Shown one piece after another: positions 1 through 8,940 of a stretch of DNA of 64,000 nt. The notes beneath the pieces were generated by a model, which was given only the letters and a program-made list of their open reading frames with translations, was not told the origin of the DNA and made no database searches. A program made the position numbers and the translations under genes. Each line of letters opens with the position of its first letter. Position 1 is the stretch's first letter. The stretch is from Salipiger mucosus DSM 16094 (GTDB taxonomy: Bacteria > Pseudomonadota > Alphaproteobacteria > Rhodobacterales > Rhodobacteraceae), in the NCBI RefSeq assembly GCF_000442255.1, contig NZ_KE557273.1, positions 676,662-740,661 of the forward strand, read 5' to 3'.

Positions 1-1383
1 GCGGTGCGTCAGGTTCAGCAGCCCGTAGCTCACCCGCGTCGCGGCACCGTCCGGCGCCACGTCCACCAGGCGCGCGGCGACCTGCGCGACGGGGCGGTCG
101 ACCTTGACCGTCAGCGTCAGCCGCGCATCACCCGCGATCTCGAGGTCGGCCTCGAGCGGGGCGGTGTCGAAGGTCAGGCTGCCCGCGTCCTCGCGGCGCT
201 GATCGCCCGGCTGGTCGCCCACATGCGCGTAGGAGCACCACTTGCCCGCGTGCTGGCCCACCCAGAGCGGCGAGCGGATTTCGAGCGCGGCATCATCGGC
301 CGCCTTCGTGCCGCCAAGCTGCCCGTCCGCCCCCAGCGCATAGGCCGTGCGCGTGATGTTGGGCGAGGGCCACGCGGGCTCGGTGATCCAGCGGCCGTCG
401 CGGCGTTCGTAGAAACCGCGCGGCTCGGCATGGTCCTGCATGAAGAGCCGCAGCGGCGGCTCGTCCGCGATGCCGGTGTCCTGCCCCTTGAGCCACTGGT
501 CCCACCAGCGCGTCTCCTCGGTCAGCCAGTCGACGGCGGGGCCGGGCTCGCCCAGGTGCGGATACTTGTGCGACCAGGGGCCCACGATGCCCTTGACCGG
601 CGAGCTCAGGTTCTCGACCAGCCGGAAGACCGAGCGGCAGTAGCCGTCGGCCCAGCCGCTGACGGCATAGACCGGCACCTCGATGTCGGCGAAATTCTCG
701 CAGACCGAGCCGTGCTCCCAGAAGGCGTCGCGCGTCTGGTGGCGCAGCCATTTCTCCAGCCAGAGCCCGGAGCCGTCGAGCCGTTCCTCCCAGAGCGCGC
801 GCCAGCGCTCGCCCACGTGCGCGGGATCGGGCGGCAGGGTGTTGATGCCGAACATGACCGAGGCCCAGGACAGCTGGTCGCAGAGCAGCGTGCCGCCCAT
901 GTAGTGGATGTCGTCGGCGTAGCGGTCGTCGGTCGAGCAGATGGTCACCACGGCCTTGAGCGCGGGCGGCCGAAGCGCCGCGATCTGCAGACCGTTGAAG
1001 CCGCCCCAGGAGATGCCGACGATGCCAACGCCGCCGTCGCACCAGGCCTGCTCGGCGATCCAGGCGATCGCGTCGCAGCCGTCCTGAAGCTCGATCTCGG
1101 TATACTCGTCCTCCATGACGCCGTCGGACTCGCCCGTGCCGCGCAGGTCGACGCGCACGTAGGCATAGTCGCGCGCCGCCAGCCAGGGCGCGCGGGCGTG
1201 GTCGCGTTCGAGCGTCTTGTCGTTCTTGCGATAGGGGATGTACTCGAGGATCGCCGGAACCGGCCGCGTCTCGGCGTCCTCCGGCATCCAGATCCGCGCC
1301 GCGAGGCGGGTGCCGTCGGGCATCGGGATTTCGACGTGCTCGAGTTCCCGCACCGGGCGGGGCAGTTCGGTCTCGATCTTCAT
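1..1383 (-). CDS. CocE/NonD (peptidase S15-type) hydrolase, 3' end outside window
   Basis: This is an alpha/beta-hydrolase of the CocE/NonD family (X-Pro dipeptidyl-peptidase S15 fold, cocaine-esterase-like), a serine acyl or peptidyl hydrolase. The start is the ATG at 1383; 461 codons are visible and the reading frame runs off the left edge, so the C-terminal beta-sandwich end is missing. The nucleophile elbow GISWGG places the catalytic serine at residue 125. Upstream lie the family's usual VRVDLRGTGESDG strand-loop and, later, GWADGY and GPWSHKYPHLG segments that probably carry the acid and histidine. It starts 79 nt after the ATP-grasp gene and on the same strand as cphB-cphA, so it is probably the last known gene of that operon. 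The substrate is unknown; a peptide or amide product of the cyanophycin pathway is inference. Confidence 0.85.
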   Translation of the reverse strand, partial: MKIETELPRPVRELEHVEIPMPDGTRLAARIWMPEDAETRPVPAILEYIPYRKNDKTLERDHARAPWLAARDYAYVRVDLRGTGESDGVMEDEYTEIELQDGCDAIAWIAEQAWCDGGVGIVGISWGGFNGLQIAALRPPALKAVVTICSTDDRYADDIHYMGGTLLCDQLSWASVMFGINTLPPDPAHVGERWRALWEERLDGSGLWLEKWLRHQTRDAFWEHGSVCENFADIEVPVYAVSGWADGYCRSVFRLVENLSSPVKGIVGPWSHKYPHLGEPGPAVDWLTEETRWWDQWLKGQDTGIADEPPLRLFMQDHAEPRGFYERRDGRWITEPAWPSPNITRTAYALGADGQLGGTKAADDAALEIRSPLWVGQHAGKWCSYAHVGDQPGDQRREDAGSLTFDTAPLEADLEIAGDARLTLTVKVDRPVAQVAARLVDVAPDGAATRVSYGLLNLTHR

Positions 1384-1462
1384 GGATTCGCTCGGTCCGG
1401 GGTAGGGGCGGTTGGCGCAGGGTATTGGGCGCCGGACCATGAAAGTCCAGCGCCCGTTGCCG

Positions 1463-2761
1463 CTACTCGACGATATCCGAGAACTCGTAGTTCAGCTTCT
1501 TCATCACCTGCTCGTAGTTCCACAGCAGCTTGGACTGCTTGCTGGCCCCCATCCAGACCGAGGCCACCGCGAAGCTGTAGGCGTCCTGTTCGGGCAGGTC
1601 CGAGAGCATCGAGCCGCGCGTCACGTAAGAGGTGATCCGCGTGCCCTCGACCTGCTCGGCGGCGACCTCGATCTCCGCCCGGGACGGCGCGCGGGCGACC
1701 TTGGCGTCGCGGAAGAAGACCCGGTAGAAGAACTCGGCCGCCACGTTCTCGGGGCCCTCGCCGCTGGGCATGTCGGGTTTCCGGCCGAGGCCGACGTCGA
1801 TGGTCACCTGCTGGTGGCTGACGCCGTCGACCATCTCGAAGAGGTCGCAGTGCGACTGCGCGATGCGGGTGTTGATCTCGAGCAGCCAGATCTTGTCCTG
1901 CACCTCGTCCCAGTAATACTCGATGTTGAAACCCGCGTTGTCATAGCCGATGTGCGCCATGATCGTGCGGGTGATCTCGTACATCTTGTCCTGCACCTTC
2001 TTCGGAAGCTGCGAGGGATAGAGGTAGTAGAAGAAGCTCAGCACCTGCGGGTAGCGGATCGAGTCGACCGTGCCGTAGGGCACCACCTCGCCGTTGTGGA
2101 CGTAGCCCTCGACCGTGCACTGTCGTCCGCCGATGACCTGCTCGGCCATGCAGTAGTGGCCCTCGACGCGGCTGATCTCCTCGGGCAGGTCGGCCTGGTT
2201 CAGCACGTGGTCGAAAGGCTCGCCGATGGTGCGGATCTCGGCGCGCAGCTTCTCGATGGCGAAGTCGAAGTCCTCGGGGCTGTCGATGCGGAAGCCCAGC
2301 CGCGAGCCCGAGGACTTGATCGGCTTCACGAAGAAGGGAAAGCGCAGGTCGGCCTCGCCGATCTTCGACAGCGCGTCGTCGTCGAAGGGATCGAAGGCGG
2401 TGAACTTCGGGATGTGATCGGGGATCGACTCCCGCATCACGCAGCGCGACCAGTACTTGTGCTCGCACTTCAGAAGGCTTTCGAGCGAGGCCTGCGGCGT
2501 GCCGTATTTCTCGCAGAGGATCGGCAGCATGGTCGAGACGGGAAAGTCGATGTAGCCCACGATGGCGTCGATGGAGCCGTCGAAGGCATCGAGCGTCGCC
2601 TCCGCTTCGGCCAGCATCGCGGGAATGTCGAAGTCCTGCGTCTCCGAGACCTGCGCCGGCGTGAGCAACTGGTGGAATTCCACGTCCTCGACGCCGCGCA
2701 GGCGCTCGAGGCGCTCGGCGTTCAGCTTGTTCAGGCCGATCACGAATACGTTCTTGGTCAT
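1463..2761 (-). CDS. ATP-grasp enzyme linked to cyanophycin synthetase, function unknown
   Basis: The protein has 432 residues starting at the ATG at 2761, which is preceded by a strong AGGGGGA ribosome-binding site; a longer reading from 2806 lacks one. ATP-grasp features are visible: a KPIKSSGSRLGF nucleotide-binding loop in the middle of the protein and a late LLEINTRIAQSHCD segment that looks like the Mg/ATP-binding strand (E and N residues). Enzymes of this superfamily join a carboxylate to an amine, thiol or similar nucleophile through an acyl phosphate. It lies 73 nt downstream of cphA, so it is probably co-transcribed. I cannot assign a substrate. It is not a second CphA, because it has no Mur-ligase domain. 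A role in making a primer or in modifying or tailoring cyanophycin or its Asp-Arg dipeptides is inference. Confidence 0.85.
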   Translation of the reverse strand: MTKNVFVIGLNKLNAERLERLRGVEDVEFHQLLTPAQVSETQDFDIPAMLAEAEATLDAFDGSIDAIVGYIDFPVSTMLPILCEKYGTPQASLESLLKCEHKYWSRCVMRESIPDHIPKFTAFDPFDDDALSKIGEADLRFPFFVKPIKSSGSRLGFRIDSPEDFDFAIEKLRAEIRTIGEPFDHVLNQADLPEEISRVEGHYCMAEQVIGGRQCTVEGYVHNGEVVPYGTVDSIRYPQVLSFFYYLYPSQLPKKVQDKMYEITRTIMAHIGYDNAGFNIEYYWDEVQDKIWLLEINTRIAQSHCDLFEMVDGVSHQQVTIDVGLGRKPDMPSGEGPENVAAEFFYRVFFRDAKVARAPSRAEIEVAAEQVEGTRITSYVTRGSMLSDLPEQDAYSFAVASVWMGASKQSKLLWNYEQVMKKLNYEFSDIVE

Positions 2762-2834
2762 TGTTTCCCCCTTCGCTGGGACGTGCGCAGACCCGCCGGA
2801 CGACATCCGGCGGGCGCGCCCGTGTCGGCGTTGA

Positions 2835-5489
2835 TCAGGTCTGGGCCAGTTCGGCCTGCGTGGGGAAGCTGCGCCCCTTCAGCCGGTCTGTCGTGCCCTC
2901 GATGTCGTCCACCAGCAGCAGCAGGAAGTCGCCCTGCCGCGCCTCGTCGATGGCCCGCTCGACGGCCTCGGCCTCGCCCATGATGACCTCGACCCGGCCG
3001 GTGGCGCCCGAGTTCCGCGCCCCGTCCGAGATCAGCTTGGCGACCTCGCCCTCGGCGCGGCCGCGGGCGTCGGTCTCGTAGACGAAGACCGCGTCGCACA
3101 TCTTGGCCAGCTGCGCGCCGAGCGCCTCGAGGTCCTCGTCGCGGCGGTTGCCGGGCGCGGTCGAGACGGCGATCTTGCGCTTGGTGCCCAGCCCCGAGAC
3201 CAGCGGCTCGAGCGCGACCAGCGCGGGCACGTTGTGGCCATAGTCGATCAGGCACTTCACGCCGTCGGCCTCGAAGTAGTTGGTCCGCCCGGGCATCTGC
3301 GCCGGGGTGGGGTGGAAGGTCAGCAGGCCGGCACGGATGTCGTCGATCTCGACCCCGTGGCCGATGGCCGCCGCCGCCGCCGCCATGGCGTTCTGCACGT
3401 TGAAGGGAGCATGCCCCTCGAAGGCGATGGGCACGTCGTTGACCTCGACGATCTCGACGGTGACCTTGCCGCGCAGCATGACGATCTTGCCCTGCTTCAC
3501 CGTCAGCACCATGCCGTGACCGGCGAGATGCTCGGCCAGCGCCGGGTTCTCGGGGTCCATGGTGAAATAGATGATCTCGCCACGGGCCCAGTAGGTGCCG
3601 TGTTCCATCACCAGCGGATCGTCGGCGTTGAGCACGCAGTAGCCGCCTTCGCCCTTGCGCTTGACCGCGTCGACCACGACCGTCTTGCACCGCGCGAGTT
3701 CCTCGAGCGTGTGGATGTCGCGCTCGCCCAGGTGATCCGAGGCGATGTTGAGCAGCACGCCCACGTCGGCCTCGTCGAAGCCGAGGCCCCGGCGCATGAT
3801 GCCGCCGCGCGCCACTTCGAGCACCGCGTGTTCGACCGTGGGCTCGTGCAGCACGGCGTGGGCGGCCGCGGGGCCCGAGTAGTCGCCGCGCAGGATGACG
3901 TGGTTGTCGATCTCGACCGTGCCGGTGCAGCCCATGCCGACCGACTTGCCCGACTGGCGCAGGATATGCGTGGTCAGGCGCGTGGTCGTGGTCTTGCCGT
4001 TGGTGCCGGTGATCGCGGTGATCGGCACGCGGCCGTCGTCGGTGGGATCGGGGAACAGCATGTCGACCACGTGCTCGCCCACCGGGCGGGGATCGCCGTG
4101 GGTGGGGGCCATGTGCATGCGGAAGCCGGGGCCGGCGTTCACCTCGACCACGCCGGCCGACTGTTGCTCCAGCGGCACGGTGAGGTTCTCGGCCAGCAGG
4201 TCGATGCCGATGACGTCGAGCCCGACAAGCCGGCCGATGCGCTCCATGGCGAACTTGACGTCGGGGTGCACGTCGTCGGTCAGGTCGGTCGCCGTGCCGC
4301 CGGTCGAGATGTTGGCCGTGGACTTGAGAAAGGCCAGCTCGCCCTCGGGCAGCACGGTCTCGAGCGTCAGGCCCGCCTGTTCCAGCATCCGCTCGGTCTG
4401 TGCGTCCACGTCGATCTGGGTCAGCAGGTTCTCGTGGCCGACGCCGCGCCGCGGGTCGGCGTTCTCGATGTCGATGAGCTGCTGGATCGTGTGTTTGCCG
4501 TCGCCGGTCACATGCGCCGGGCGGCGCCTTGCGGCCGCGACCAGCTTGCCGCCGATCACCAGCATGCGGTGATCCTCGCCCTTGATGTAGCTCTCGACGA
4601 TCACCGCGCCGGAGTCGTCGCGCACGCGGGCCAGGGCGGCCTCGAAGCCGGCCGCGAGATCCTCGTCATTGGCGATGTCGGTGGTCACGCCGCGCCCGTG
4701 GTTGCCCGAGAGCGGCTTGGTCACGACCGGCCAGCCGATCCAGGCGGCGGCCTCCTTCGCCTCGTCGACGGAATAGCAGATCTGGCCCTGCGGCACGGGG
4801 ATGCCCGCGTCGCCGAGGATCTGCTTGGTCCATTCCTTGTCGTCGGCGATCGAGTGGCCGATGATGCCCGAGGCGTCGGTCACGGTCGCCTGGAACTTGC
4901 GCTGCTTCACCCCGTGGCCGAGCTGGGTGTAGCTCGTGCCCTCGGTCAGGTTGGTGGCGGGAATGTTGCGCGCCTTGGCGGCGTTGACGATGGAGCCGGT
5001 CGAGGGGCCGAGCGCGTTGGCATCCCGCACCTCCTTGAGGTGGTCGATGATCGGATCGAGGTCCACGTCCTCGCCGTCGTAGAGTTTCTGCACGATCTCG
5101 ACGGCCGCCTCGCCGGCGGCGAGGCCCGTGGCCTCGTCGCGGTAGCGGTAGACGACGTTGTAGATGCCGGCATCGTAGCTGTCGACGGTCTTGCCGTAGC
5201 CGACCGAGAAGCCCACGAGGTTCTGCAACTCGATCGCGACATGCTCGACCATGTGGCCGGCCCATGTGCCGCGCTCGACCCGCTGCAGGAAGCCGCCCGG
5301 TTCACCGACCGAGCAGCGGTGGTCGTGGATCGTGGGGATCAGCGACTGGAGGTTCTGCGCGATGCCCGGCACCTTGTCGCTGGGCCGGTCTTCCAGTTCC
5401 TCGATGTCCAGCCGCATGTAGATCGCTTTGTAGCGGCTGTAGTAGTTCGGTCCGCGAAGAGCGCGGCATTCAAGTATCTGCAAACTCAT
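2835..5489 (-). CDS. cphA: Cyanophycin synthetase
   Basis: CphA polymerises multi-L-arginyl-poly-L-aspartate (cyanophycin), a cytoplasmic nitrogen/carbon reserve, using ATP. The 884-residue product matches the usual length (about 870-900). Three parts can be seen. The N-terminal domain (about 1-160) contains an HMVEH motif at residues 79-83. The ATP-grasp domain (about 215-480) has KPLSGNHGRG near 258 and EVNAGPGF near 449. The Mur-ligase-like domain from about 488 has the P-loop GTNGKTTTT at 495-503, and further on an ASDHLGERD segment. Both ATP-dependent halves look intact, so it is a CphA1-type enzyme rather than the CphA2 type with a degraded ATP-grasp half. The ATG at 5489 lies inside the last codons of cphB (20-nt overlap), which suggests translational coupling. 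Confidence 0.96.
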   Translation of the reverse strand: MSLQILECRALRGPNYYSRYKAIYMRLDIEELEDRPSDKVPGIAQNLQSLIPTIHDHRCSVGEPGGFLQRVERGTWAGHMVEHVAIELQNLVGFSVGYGKTVDSYDAGIYNVVYRYRDEATGLAAGEAAVEIVQKLYDGEDVDLDPIIDHLKEVRDANALGPSTGSIVNAAKARNIPATNLTEGTSYTQLGHGVKQRKFQATVTDASGIIGHSIADDKEWTKQILGDAGIPVPQGQICYSVDEAKEAAAWIGWPVVTKPLSGNHGRGVTTDIANDEDLAAGFEAALARVRDDSGAVIVESYIKGEDHRMLVIGGKLVAAARRRPAHVTGDGKHTIQQLIDIENADPRRGVGHENLLTQIDVDAQTERMLEQAGLTLETVLPEGELAFLKSTANISTGGTATDLTDDVHPDVKFAMERIGRLVGLDVIGIDLLAENLTVPLEQQSAGVVEVNAGPGFRMHMAPTHGDPRPVGEHVVDMLFPDPTDDGRVPITAITGTNGKTTTTRLTTHILRQSGKSVGMGCTGTVEIDNHVILRGDYSGPAAAHAVLHEPTVEHAVLEVARGGIMRRGLGFDEADVGVLLNIASDHLGERDIHTLEELARCKTVVVDAVKRKGEGGYCVLNADDPLVMEHGTYWARGEIIYFTMDPENPALAEHLAGHGMVLTVKQGKIVMLRGKVTVEIVEVNDVPIAFEGHAPFNVQNAMAAAAAAIGHGVEIDDIRAGLLTFHPTPAQMPGRTNYFEADGVKCLIDYGHNVPALVALEPLVSGLGTKRKIAVSTAPGNRRDEDLEALGAQLAKMCDAVFVYETDARGRAEGEVAKLISDGARNSGATGRVEVIMGEAEAVERAIDEARQGDFLLLLVDDIEGTTDRLKGRSFPTQAELAQT

Positions 5490-6330
5490 GCTCCAGGTTT
5501 TCGGCCCGGAGCTCGTCCGGGCTTAGGACCCGTTGATCCGCCATGTCGTAGGCATAGCCGTCGACCAACGCGTGCATGATGACGTTCTGGACGCTCACCG
5601 CCTCGCCGTCACCCAACTCGAAAACATTCGAGCCGGTAATGCGGCTGCTGTCAATGAGGATGACGTGACCCGGCCCGAAGACACGCAGCAGGTCGCCGTC
5701 GAAGAAGACGGCCGCATCCTCGCCAAGACCCACGCCGAGGTATTCGGGATTGGTCGCGCCGACCTCCATCAGGCGCGAGAAACGCCCGCGCTCGAGGAAG
5801 TGGGTGTCCATGATGACGCCGTCCACGAGGCCGAACCCGGCCGACATCTTGACCGCGCCCTTGCGCAGGCAGTCGTCGGCCGGACCGCCGTAGACCATCG
5901 TGCGCGACTGGCAGGCGGCGCCCGCGCTCGTGCCGGCGATGACGGTGCCGCGTTCGTGGCAGGCGCGCAGCGTGTCCAGCGCCACCGAGGCGCCCAGCAC
6001 GTTTGTCAGCCGCATCTGGTCGCCGCCCGAGATGAAGATCACGTCCGAGCGGCGGATCATCTCGACGAAGGTGCCGGATTCCGCGTCCTGCCGGTCGCGA
6101 ATGCGGATATCGAGCACCTCGGAGGCGCCAAGTGCGCCGAAGGCCTGGTCGTATCCGGCGAAGACATCGTCGGGGATGCTGCTGGCCGTGGTGATGACGC
6201 CGACGACAGGGGCGTCCTTTTGCGACAGCGACAGGACCCGGCGCAGGATGTCTCCGCGCGACGTCTTCTCCTCGGCGCCGCCGATGGCGACGAGCGCGCC
6301 CTTGCGGGGCACCTGGACGGACATGTTCAT
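5470..6330 (-). CDS. cphB: Cyanophycinase
   Basis: CphB is an exo-acting serine peptidase (family S51) that releases beta-Asp-Arg dipeptides from cyanophycin. The 286-residue product begins at the ATG at 6330, placed 8 nt after a GGAG ribosome-binding site; a longer frame up to 6459 has no such site. The nucleophile motif GTSAGAA puts the catalytic serine at 135, close to the position known in cyanobacterial CphB. It is preceded by the IFISGGDQ segment typical of the family. It is the first gene of the cphB-cphA-ATP-grasp-hydrolase run and overlaps cphA. The divergent neighbour iaaA would complete dipeptide breakdown. Confidence 0.95.
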   Translation of the reverse strand: MNMSVQVPRKGALVAIGGAEEKTSRGDILRRVLSLSQKDAPVVGVITTASSIPDDVFAGYDQAFGALGASEVLDIRIRDRQDAESGTFVEMIRRSDVIFISGGDQMRLTNVLGASVALDTLRACHERGTVIAGTSAGAACQSRTMVYGGPADDCLRKGAVKMSAGFGLVDGVIMDTHFLERGRFSRLMEVGATNPEYLGVGLGEDAAVFFDGDLLRVFGPGHVILIDSSRITGSNVFELGDGEAVSVQNVIMHALVDGYAYDMADQRVLSPDELRAENLEHEFADT

Positions 6331-6350
6331 TTCTTTGTCTCCGGAGGATG

Positions 6351-6386
6351 ATGACGTCATATCGGCAACATGACTACAGCATGTCA
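6351..6386. promoter_or_regulatory. Putative operator between cphB and iaaA
   Basis: The 188-nt gap between the divergent genes cphB and iaaA holds a perfect 10-bp palindrome ATGACGTCAT (6351-6360), 21 nt upstream of the cphB start. Just beyond it is a TGAC-N8-GTCA inverted repeat (6371-6386). The two share the TGAC/GTCA half-site, so they may be binding sites for one dimeric regulator controlling storage and breakdown genes. No regulator gene is adjacent; the assignment is inference from symmetry and position. Confidence 0.35.
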
Positions 6387-6518
6387 GCAGGTGATTGACA
6401 GAGCGTATCCACTGGATGAAACGATCCGGTGCCCGCGCAGCACACATCCTGCCCTCCACGAGGCAGCCGATCGGGCGCGCGGCAGATTTTGGACCCCCAT
6501 TGCAGCCGAGGGATCGCC

Positions 6519-7445
6519 ATGACTCGCAGTTTCACCCTTGCCGTCCACGGCGGTGCCGGCGTCATGCCGCGCGCCCAGATGACACCCGAGCGCGAGGCGG
6601 CCTGTCACGCCGCGCTCGCCCGTGTGCTCGCGGCGGGCGAGGCGGTGCTGGCCGCCGACGGCACCGCGCTGGATGCCGCGGTGGCGGCGGTCTGCGCGCT
6701 CGAGGACGAGCCGCTCTTCAACGCGGGGCGCGGCGCGGTCTACACCCGCGAGGGCCGGCAGGAGATGGATGCCGCCGTCATGGACGGTCGCGACCGGCGC
6801 GCAGGGGCGGTGGCCGGGCTTTTCGGGCCGCGCAACCCGGTGCTCGCGGCGCGGGCCGTGATGGAGACCACGGACCACGTCCTCATGATGGGCGAGGGCG
6901 CGCTCGCGGTGGCGCGGGCGGCGGGGCTCGATCTCGCCGAGCCCGACTACTTCTTCACGCAGGAGCGCTGGGATACGCTGCAGGAAACGCTGCGAATGGA
7001 GCGCGAGGGCGTTCTGGACGACGATCCCTCGCGCCGGCACGGCACGGTTGGCGCGGTGGCCCGCGACCGCGATGGCAATGTCGCCGCCGCCACCTCGACC
7101 GGCGGCATGACCGCCAAGCGGCCCGGCCGGGTGGGCGACAGCCCGGTGATCGGCGCGGGCACCCATGCCGACAACGCGACCTGCGCGACTTCCGCCACCG
7201 GCGACGGCGAGGCCTTCCTGAGGCTCTGCGTGGCGCACGAGATCGACGCGCGCATGCGGCTGGCGGGGCTCAGCCTGGCGCAGGCCGCCGAGCAGGTGGT
7301 GATGAGCGATCTCGCGGCGATCGGCGGCTCCGGCGGGCTGATCGCGGTGGATCGCGATGGCCGGGTCTCGATGCCCTTCAACTGCGAGGGCATGTATCGC
7401 GGCGTGCTGACCGAGGGGCAGTCGCCGGAAACCTCGGTCTACTGA
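6519..7445 (+). CDS. iaaA: Isoaspartyl peptidase / L-asparaginase (Ntn-hydrolase)
   Basis: This plant-type asparaginase of the N-terminal-nucleophile hydrolase family cleaves beta-aspartyl dipeptides, including the beta-Asp-Arg made by cyanophycinase, giving aspartate and arginine. The 308-residue product starts at the ATG at 6519 after a GAGGGA site; the 30-codon longer reading was rejected. The family's self-processing motif HGTVGAV is present, with the nucleophile threonine at 176 (Thr179 in the E. coli enzyme). The substrate-binding segments AVHGGAG at the N terminus, RVGDSPVIGAGTHAD and ATGDGEAF are also intact. It is divergent from cphB across a short gap with palindromes, so the full make-and-degrade cycle for cyanophycin sits in one locus. 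Confidence 0.93.
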   Translation: MTRSFTLAVHGGAGVMPRAQMTPEREAACHAALARVLAAGEAVLAADGTALDAAVAAVCALEDEPLFNAGRGAVYTREGRQEMDAAVMDGRDRRAGAVAGLFGPRNPVLAARAVMETTDHVLMMGEGALAVARAAGLDLAEPDYFFTQERWDTLQETLRMEREGVLDDDPSRRHGTVGAVARDRDGNVAAATSTGGMTAKRPGRVGDSPVIGAGTHADNATCATSATGDGEAFLRLCVAHEIDARMRLAGLSLAQAAEQVVMSDLAAIGGSGGLIAVDRDGRVSMPFNCEGMYRGVLTEGQSPETSVY

Positions 7446-7458
7446 GGGGCGCGGGCAT

Positions 7459-8643
7459 TCAGGCCAGCGAGATCAGCGCCTCGGCCACCGCCTGCGCATC
7501 GTAGCGGTCCGGCTCGGCGGCCTTCTGCAGGGGCAGGCGGTGGCACGGGATGCCGAAGCGTTCGGTCACCTCGGCGCAGTCCGAGGGCGAGACCGAGCTA
7601 TCGCAGAGCACATGCGTCATCAGCCGGCGGGCGGGCACCTCTTCGCGGATATCGGCATGCAGCGGTGCCAGGATCGCGGCGACGCGGTCAGCGAGAGACT
7701 GTCCCGGCGCCTCGGGGTCGCGACCGAGGCTTGGCAGGTAGACCTTGGGCACGTGCCGCGCGGCGATGGCCCGGCCGACGCCGGCGGGCAGGAGGTTGGC
7801 GACGACGCTGGAATAGAGGCTCCCCGGCGGGTAGCAGATCACGTCGGAGCGGTCGATGAGCCTGCGGTTGCGCTTGGGCAGCGGCACCTGCGCGGGCGTG
7901 ATCTCCTGACTGCCGTCGCTGAGAAAGCAGCGGGTGACGGGGCTGTCGATGGGCGGCGCCTCCTTGCCGCTGATGAGCCGCTGGCTGAGGATGCGCCGCC
8001 CGTCGGCGAGGTCGACCCCGAGCTGCAGGTTCGCGTCGACCACGGCGCGCACGGTGCCGCGCACGTCCACCATCTTGGTCATGAGGAACAGCACCGGCTC
8101 GAGCGCGCGGCCCTCGTCGAGATAGCCGCCCGCAAGGATCAGGTTGCCGATGCTGGCATTGCGGTAGTCGAAGCCGTCGGGAACCTGCGCGGCAAAGCTC
8201 CTGAGCCGCGCCTGGATCAGCCCGCGCATGGGTTTCGTGACGGCGGCCATCAGCGGGTGCCTGCCCCCGATCATGGCATCGAGTTCAGCGCGCAGCTCGG
8301 CCTGCGGGGCGCTGCGCGACAGCCGGTGGCTGAAGAGCGCGTAGATGTCGGGCTGGCCCAGCACGGATTCGTCCGCGAGTGCCATCAGGCGGCTCCGCAG
8401 GTCGCCCACCGCCGGCATGTCGAAGACCTCGCGCAGGATCTGCGAGCTTCCGCCGCTGTCGAAGGGCGTGATGAGGTGGATCGAGTTGTAGGTATAGTGC
8501 TTGAGCTGCCGCGAGATGCCGTTGAGCGCGCTGCCCCCGCTGAAGAACAGCACCCTCGGGCCGAGGTGCGGCGCGCTGCGCGCGCGGGCGGTGCGCAGGT
8601 CGTCGGGCAGCCTGATCTCGCGTTCGATCCGGATTTCGGTCAT
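7459..8643 (-). CDS. CofD-like (UPF0052-type) protein
   Basis: The 394-residue product starts at the ATG at 8643. The N-terminal FFSGGSALNG loop followed by a TPFDSGGSSQ segment resembles the nucleotide- or phosphosugar-binding loops of the CofD/YvcK superfamily (2-phospho-L-lactate transferase fold). Members are either transferases or, like YvcK, UDP-sugar-binding regulators of carbon use. A later segment, DVICYPPGSLYSS, matches the conserved second glycine-rich loop. It is convergent with iaaA (13 nt between stops) and not obviously in an operon with it. Its role is unknown; a link with the cyanophycin genes rests only on proximity. Confidence 0.72.
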   Translation of the reverse strand: MTEIRIEREIRLPDDLRTARARSAPHLGPRVLFFSGGSALNGISRQLKHYTYNSIHLITPFDSGGSSQILREVFDMPAVGDLRSRLMALADESVLGQPDIYALFSHRLSRSAPQAELRAELDAMIGGRHPLMAAVTKPMRGLIQARLRSFAAQVPDGFDYRNASIGNLILAGGYLDEGRALEPVLFLMTKMVDVRGTVRAVVDANLQLGVDLADGRRILSQRLISGKEAPPIDSPVTRCFLSDGSQEITPAQVPLPKRNRRLIDRSDVICYPPGSLYSSVVANLLPAGVGRAIAARHVPKVYLPSLGRDPEAPGQSLADRVAAILAPLHADIREEVPARRLMTHVLCDSSVSPSDCAEVTERFGIPCHRLPLQKAAEPDRYDAQAVAEALISLA

Positions 8644-8940
8644 GTGGTCGTCACCCGGTTTTCGAGACAGGGCGGGAAACTGTCTTCGATCTGTGGCCGT
8701 CATCGGACGCATGTGTCTGCACGGACCCCGTGAACGTCATACGCCCGACAACGCCCGCTGTCATCCGCAACGGTCCGCAGGTGCTCGTGGAGGTCAAGCC
8801 GCGGCCTCGGTTGCGGCGGCGCGCTCGGCTTCCATCTCCTCGTGGATTCCTGCGGCGATTTCGCTCGCCTCTTCGCCGGGCTATCTCGACCTTGGAGCGC
8901 CTTTGGAGCGCGCTGCCCTTGCACGAACGGAGAGACCGCA
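8644..8940. other. Intergenic region with possible coding remnant
   Basis: This 297-nt gap separates the divergent CofD-like gene and the carboxymuconolactone-type gene and should contain both promoters, though no clear -35/-10 pair is seen. On the minus strand, about 8800-8878 reads as a very coding-like, helix-rich stretch of 25 or so codons rich in Glu and Ala. It ends in a stop but is blocked upstream by an in-frame TAG and has no good start. It may be the decayed end of a small protein gene. Confidence 0.3.

Follow-up and report, generated by a model that had tools for sequence, protein, structure and literature searches.

Two genes that accompany the cyanophycin genes of Salipiger mucosus DSM 16094, one encoding an ATP-grasp ligase (hereafter ATPG) and the other a CocE/NonD-type S15 hydrolase (CocE), are well supported as members of the cyanophycin pathway of these bacteria. 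Cyanophycin is a nitrogen-storage polymer, and its usual gene set comprises cyanophycin synthetase (CphA), cyanophycinase (CphB) and an isoaspartyl dipeptidase. The genes lie at the left end of a 64,000-nucleotide stretch of contig NZ_KE557273.1 (the window). An earlier note on this DNA had described cphB, cphA, an ATP-grasp gene and a CocE/S15 hydrolase gene as co-directional, with short gaps and one overlap, and iaaA as divergent, and all five genes were confirmed (Table 1). Directly shown are the gene order, the co-occurrence, the linkage to one CphA clade, the class of fold and the conserved residues. We give about an even chance (probability of roughly 0.5) to the reading that, in halophiles, the two enzymes make and break a small peptide-like compound in exchange with the polymer or supplying it.

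The species-genome contigs were scanned by alignment to ATPG, and the best 80 of at least 516 confirmed relatives were kept, a set that may omit the window's own genome. Both cphA and cphB adjoined ATPG in 43 of these 80 loci, 30 of them collinear and 13 with cphB-cphA divergent from ATPG-CocE; CocE followed ATPG co-directionally in 75, and an iaaA homologue was present in 23. The hosts were chiefly Rhodobacteraceae/Roseobacteraceae and Halomonadaceae, together with Ferruginivarius, Rhodovibrio, one metagenome-assembled genome (MAG) named Hyphomicrobiales and two Desulfobacteraceae MAGs. The collinear order occurred in Rhodobacteraceae, Ferruginivarius and Desulfobacteraceae and the divergent order in Halomonadaceae, two phyla overall. 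The ATPG tree (93 rows) contained a 32-row clade, 31 rows of which were collinear with cphA, and the 13 divergent Halomonadaceae loci formed one clade. A full cphA was present elsewhere in 24 of the 36 genomes whose ATPG locus had no adjacent cphA (the search covered 38 genomes, among them two with adjacent cphA as controls; G423, counted in the 24, is apparently the MAG of locus L100, where cphA adjoins ATPG). The conserved co-occurrence of ATPG, hydrolase and cphA that the earlier note had proposed as a check thus reaches past close relatives, spanning two gene orders and two phyla, and for this reason we assign ATPG and CocE to the cyanophycin pathway.

Samples of related genomes gave the same picture. 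Among 295 genomes of the window's family, a close ATPG (at least 77% identity) was present in 10, a full cphA in 19 and both in 10 (Fisher p = 8e-14, which ignores shared descent); cphA adjoined ATPG in all 10 and CocE did so in nine. The nine cphA genomes without ATPG encoded CphA and CphB proteins only 39-44% and 31-36% identical, respectively, to those of the window, and two more genomes, neither with cphA, carried a distant ATPG only (37-41%), in both cases beside CocE. This family sample and the 80-locus set are not independent because some genomes recur under another handle. In the Halomonas family (151 genomes), close ATPG (60-67%) was found in 62 genomes and cphA in 45; all 45 cphA genomes had a close ATPG, versus 17 of the 106 genomes without cphA (Fisher p = 1e-24, again ignoring shared descent), and 14 more genomes had only a distant ATPG, none of them with cphA. 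In a class sample of 385 genomes, ATPG matched at E < 1e-20 in 12 and cphA at E < 1e-150 in 10, six of the latter above the family cut-off; the overlap consisted of two genomes, those with ATPG of at least 70% identity. Within the window's genus, cphA was found in one of 20 genomes and a strong ATPG likewise only there, in the window's own genome, which indicates that the two were gained or kept together. The Desulfobacteraceae family sample, with four genomes, is too small for counts. Taken together, the co-occurrence counts exceed chance.

The window's CphA scored 1122.9 bits against TIGR02068 (cut-off 850) and contained PF18921, RimK, Mur_ligase_M and Mur_ligase_C domains. Its N, G and M domains were complete, as in CphA1, and it matched the solved cyanophycin synthetase 7lg5 with E = 3.7e-238. 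The 55-row CphA tree grouped every one of the 39 CphAs whose genomes carry ATPG, seven of them with ATPG elsewhere in the genome, into a single clade (support 100/100) with 52 clade-fixed columns, and left outside it the 16 whose genomes lack a close ATPG. The Asp-binding and catalytic residues R309, R323, N394, S396 and R458 of CphA1 (Te/Su numbering) were identical in 39/39 linked sequences. In TeCphA1, Glu215 is a contact for the Arg in primer unit four (PMC9427784). This contact residue was missing from the window's CphA, which carries Ser213 instead; the equivalent position was Gly, Ser or Ala in 39/39 linked CphAs and Glu in 12/12 unlinked canonical ones, and the four divergent unlinked CphAs had Ser, Asp, Ala or Thr. 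Since the effect of mutating Glu215 differs between TeCphA1 and SuCphA1, as passages of the same paper indicate, its absence leaves the CphA1 assignment standing. Judged from the alignment, the change may fit an altered primer or polymer contact, or mere descent.

A modified polymer would account for several of these features: ATPG would make or cap a unit for CphA or alter the chain ends, and CocE would remove the modification. The single clade with its fixed columns, the replacement of Glu215 in every linked CphA and the fact that Halomonas-family cphA never occurs without close ATPG, while ATPG occurs without cphA, are all consistent with this explanation. However, shared descent alone predicts clade-fixed changes, the unlinked set comes mostly from one family, and the four divergent unlinked CphAs also lack Glu at this position. 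Because the five Asp-binding and catalytic residues are unchanged and the ATPG-CocE pair also occurs without CphA, we consider a modified polymer unlikely, though deserving of some weight. As a separate observation on CphA-like sequences, three Halomonas-type clusters spanning 9 to 13 kb contained at least seven (G434:C85:155308-167438), at least six (G436:C2:193262-206083) and at least four (G448:C30:14342-22960) CphA-ATP-grasp-like stretches, a possible multi-ATP-grasp peptide pathway.

The earlier note had also offered a primer-making and editing role for the added pair, in which ATPG would assemble short primers for CphA and CocE would trim or edit them. Close linkage to cphA and the loss of the Glu215 primer contact agree with such a role. 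On the other side, the Cx19HxxEH motif of the N domain, responsible for primer generation in SuCphA1 (PMC9262961), was intact in 55/55 ATPG-linked CphA frames (the picking pattern found linked CphAs only, and some genomes were counted twice, by name and by G handle). The linked CphAs therefore keep their own primer-making motif and, as the pair also occurs without CphA, this role is disfavored and very unlikely. The 16 unlinked CphAs had Cx21HxxEH in 10 cases and the strict Cx19HxxEH in one, with the motif missing in five, and the N-domain primer motif is no discriminator of the linked clade.

ATPG matched PF13535 (ATP-grasp_4) with 41.7 bits (cut-off 27), and no NCBIfam family scored above its cut-off. 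Residues K102, K146, E281, E295, N297 and R299 were invariant among 30 aligned sequences. When folds were ranked against the structure model (predicted local distance difference test score 93.8), BacD (3vmm) came first, BL00235 (3vot) sixth and 4wd3 17th, with phosphoribosylglycinamide synthetase and biotin carboxylases between BacD and BL00235. In profile searches, carbamoyl-phosphate synthetase and BL00235 scored best, with E = 6.9e-9 to 3vot and 1.1e-6 to 2.4e-6 to BacD. The model places ATPG near BacD and BL00235, like an ATP-grasp L-amino acid ligase, and its predicted fold class is that of the dipeptide ligases. BacD catalyzes amide-bond formation in the dipeptide antibiotic bacilysin, and the closest fold to ATPG being that of BacD could point to a peptide natural product assembled from units of cyanophycin origin. 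Nevertheless, no recurring tailoring or resistance gene was seen in the neighborhood, and the commonest families of the 31 collinear loci, once the five genes and the frames that overlap them are set aside, were generic (a TRAP-type permease in six and an ABC ATPase in four, typed by the look of the sequence), so that such a product seems highly improbable. A defense role was rejected, as PADLOC gave no match for ATPG or for the window part of CocE. No ATPG match was found among 50,697 phage records; distant relatives were present on 13 of 72,556 plasmid records, all below 60% identity, five well-covered ones having 29.5-32.5% identity. Two of these plasmid relatives were inspected and had metal or stress genes nearby, with cphA not annotated.

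The window part of CocE scored 225.6 bits against TIGR00976 (CocE/NonD; cut-off 66.3) and also matched PF02129 and PF08530. Ser125, Asp246 and His272, assigned as the catalytic triad by analogy with cocaine esterase, were invariant in 23 aligned sequences; both the family score and this triad agree with a CocE/NonD (S15) hydrolase. The closest fold to the CocE model (score 82.3) was cocaine esterase (1ju3), followed by other S15-type hydrolases, aminopeptidases and amino acid ester hydrolases. Alpha-amino acid ester hydrolases presumably carry a D-x-E-D cluster of amine-binding carboxylates after the catalytic Asp, whereas the window's CocE reads D246-G-Y-C. Asp152, Asp153 and Asp157 were invariant, a feature of the family. 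Both ATPG and CocE look catalytically intact. For four of the five loci without an adjacent CocE, the genome could be searched, and three carried CocE elsewhere (54-66% identity), a Rhodovibrio MAG being the exception. One Desulfobacteraceae genome had a second ATPG frame, interrupted by a single stop, beside CocE on another contig (G865:C150).

The pair was also found away from cyanophycin genes. In 20 further loci with a distant ATPG, CocE adjoined it in 16 (only partially in L185 and L190). ATPG-CocE is therefore a module of its own, because the pair exists without cphA alongside it or in the genome. The dependence is one-sided: the linked CphA clade comes with ATPG and nearly always CocE, and the pair can lack cyanophycin. 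Among 25 distant ATPG loci, neighboring families included DUF892 in six, Mn-catalase in five, KGG stress repeats in three and Ku/LigD in three, one member of each being typed by Pfam. Examples near distant ATPG are L175:7523-7858, L177:11517-12032 and L179:11784-12635, which correspond to KGG repeats, a DUF892 ferritin-like protein and Mn-catalase. A TelA-type family was present in 27 of 90 clustered loci, none with cphA in the locus; this number fell to 19 once overlapping reading frames, which blur neighbor clustering in GC-rich DNA, were removed. In two Halomonas loci (L083:7544-9824 and L095:13566-15764), a TelA-family gene and a partner of 314 aa without a Pfam match flanked ATPG-CocE, upstream in one locus and downstream in the other. 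The Halomonas genome of L083 (G421) carried four ATPG paralogues (C11:17679, C17:490974, C11:167804 and C22:204138), three of them 40-45% identical to the window's ATPG.

These neighbors raise the explanation that only physiology is shared, with ATPG-CocE serving salt or general stress and being co-induced with the cyanophycin genes without a common metabolite. The named hosts are mostly marine or halophilic, as judged from their names, and DUF892, Mn-catalase, KGG, Ku/LigD and TelA lie near some of the distant pairs and near many of the close Halomonas pairs whose locus has no cphA. Yet the co-occurrence in 45/45 cphA genomes of the Halomonas family, 25 of them with the genes apart, and the restriction to one CphA clade exceed what co-regulation usually produces, which makes this explanation improbable.

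The one-sided dependence and the autonomy of the ligase-hydrolase pair lead us instead to a small peptide-like compound that would share the pool of Asp, Arg or beta-Asp-Arg or supply CphA. ATPG and CocE would form a synthesis and breakdown pair for a small amide, most likely dipeptide-like. ATPG would use ATP to activate a carboxylate to an acyl phosphate and then join it to an amine, and CocE would hydrolyze the product. CphA would polymerize Asp and Arg, CphB and IaaA would degrade cyanophycin via beta-Asp-Arg back to its two amino acids, and the added enzymes would act on this same small pool, that is, on Asp, Arg or beta-Asp-Arg. The product may be a soluble stress-related peptide that exchanges with the polymer or a unit used by the linked CphA. 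Peptide synthesis by ATPG, cleavage of the same product by CocE, the substrate and the stress role are what we infer from the combined evidence. More tentatively, and with slightly less than even odds, halophiles may have a second, undescribed cyanophycin branch, in which ATPG builds a new peptide from a cyanophycin-derived unit (Arg, Asp or beta-Asp-Arg) and CocE is its dedicated hydrolase; the peptide would be a soluble stress solute storing nitrogen reversibly, or a unit that the CphA clade without Glu215 puts into a modified polymer.

Several observations weigh against a peptide-like compound tied to cyanophycin. In fold or sequence, ATPG is also akin to biotin carboxylase, phosphoribosylglycinamide synthetase and carbamoyl-phosphate synthetase, and because of this likeness it may catalyze a different ATP-grasp reaction. 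In the Halomonas family, cphA and ATPG were not adjacent in 25 of the 45 cphA genomes (adjacent in 20), and the 17 genomes with close ATPG and no cphA imply that ATPG does not need cyanophycin. A Rhodovibrio MAG (G455) had ATPG and cphA with no CocE match. The one exception in the cphA-linked ATPG clade is L078, which sits on a 3.5 kb contig ending just upstream; its MAG (G456, 2.4 Mb) yielded no full cphA. The stress neighbors were present in just three to six of the 25 distant loci, counts that are without a background control.

The coordinates are given in Table 1. The starts are probable ones, assigned by reading, and those of iaaA, cphB and CocE are shorter than the longest frames; the ATPG start is directly preceded by agggggaaac, and CocE relatives also align from the start given. 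The cphB/cphA overlap is 20 bp, the cphA-ATPG and ATPG-CocE gaps are 73 and 79 bp, and 188 bp separate the divergent iaaA and cphB. CocE runs beyond the left window edge; its genome-wide length is 671 aa from MKIET (L029:11370-13382), or 690 aa if counted from the first ATG. CphB scored 210.8 bits against TIGR02069 (cut-off 126.6), aligned with the solved structures 7uqv and 3en0 and contained the Ser of GTSAGAA, which we take to be its nucleophile, as in cyanophycinases of family S51. The window's CphB has DTHF where 3en0, presumably Synechocystis CphB, has DQHF, with Thr for Gln before the conserved His. IaaA scored 338.9 bits against PF01112 (cut-off 27) and 332.4 bits against the beta-aspartyl-peptidase model NF007589, under its cut-off of 567.

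Table 1. Features of the cyanophycin cluster at the left end of the window.
Feature	Position	Strand	Family or basis
CocE/NonD (S15) hydrolase, N-terminal part	1..1383	-	TIGR00976, PF02129, PF08530
ATPG, predicted ATP-grasp ligase of L-amino acid ligase type, 432 aa	1463..2761	-	PF13535
cphA, cyanophycin synthetase, 884 aa, ATPG-linked clade	2835..5489	-	TIGR02068
cphB, cyanophycinase	5470..6330 (longest frame to 6459)	-	TIGR02069
Divergent cphB/iaaA intergenic region	6331..6518	.	known site patterns scanned
iaaA, isoaspartyl aminopeptidase/asparaginase	6519..7445	+	PF01112

A gene convergent with iaaA (7459-8712, minus strand) encodes a GAK-system CofD-like protein (TIGR04357, 482.6 bits). It was rejected as a part of the cluster because none of the 80 ATPG loci had a match at E 1e-8. 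A shared operator was also rejected: RpoN, NtrC, ArgR and two EcfG patterns showed no clear excess over shuffles in 22 iaaA-cphB and 13 Halomonas cphB-ATPG intergenic regions, and the window's cphB-iaaA region had no excess of these five patterns. A promoter-like TATAA word was common to the Halomonas cphB-ATPG regions.

The clustering of cphA, cyanophycinase and iaaA has already been described, and the IaaA from the cphA-cphB cluster of Roseivivax halodurans was characterized as promiscuous (both in parts of PMC10206079). None of the terms ATP-grasp, CofD, GAK, ligase and peptidase S15 occurs in the main text of that paper. No paper on ATPG or CocE together with cyanophycin was found in a partial coverage of the literature, without most subscription papers and bioRxiv preprints. 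The ATPG-CocE association, seen in many marine and halophilic bacteria, suggests that their cyanophycin pathway, as currently described, lacks a step or a second product. As the ligase-hydrolase pair is present with one CphA clade in almost all genomes examined, the polymer or the small-molecule pool would differ in halophiles; alternatively, nitrogen storage and salt stress would share a metabolite. Cyanophycin is of industrial interest, and a new cyanophycin-modifying enzyme would be useful.

Upon comparison with known systems, the TIGR04357 protein of the GAK system adjoins iaaA here, yet lies outside the cyanophycin cluster. CocE has TIGR00976, the S15/PepX_C domains and the Ser-Asp-His residues in common with the cocaine esterase/S15 family, whereas the D-x-E-D cluster of alpha-amino acid ester hydrolases is absent from it. 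ATPG shares the fold, the ATP-grasp lysines, the acidic residues and the Asn/Arg pair with BacD/YwfE, BL00235 and RizA, although the identity is just 14-18%. The CphA, CphB and IaaA proteins of the canonical CphA1-CphB-IaaA/IadA system, with their conserved catalytic residues, are also found here; the difference is the two added genes, ATPG and CocE, which are tied to one CphA clade.

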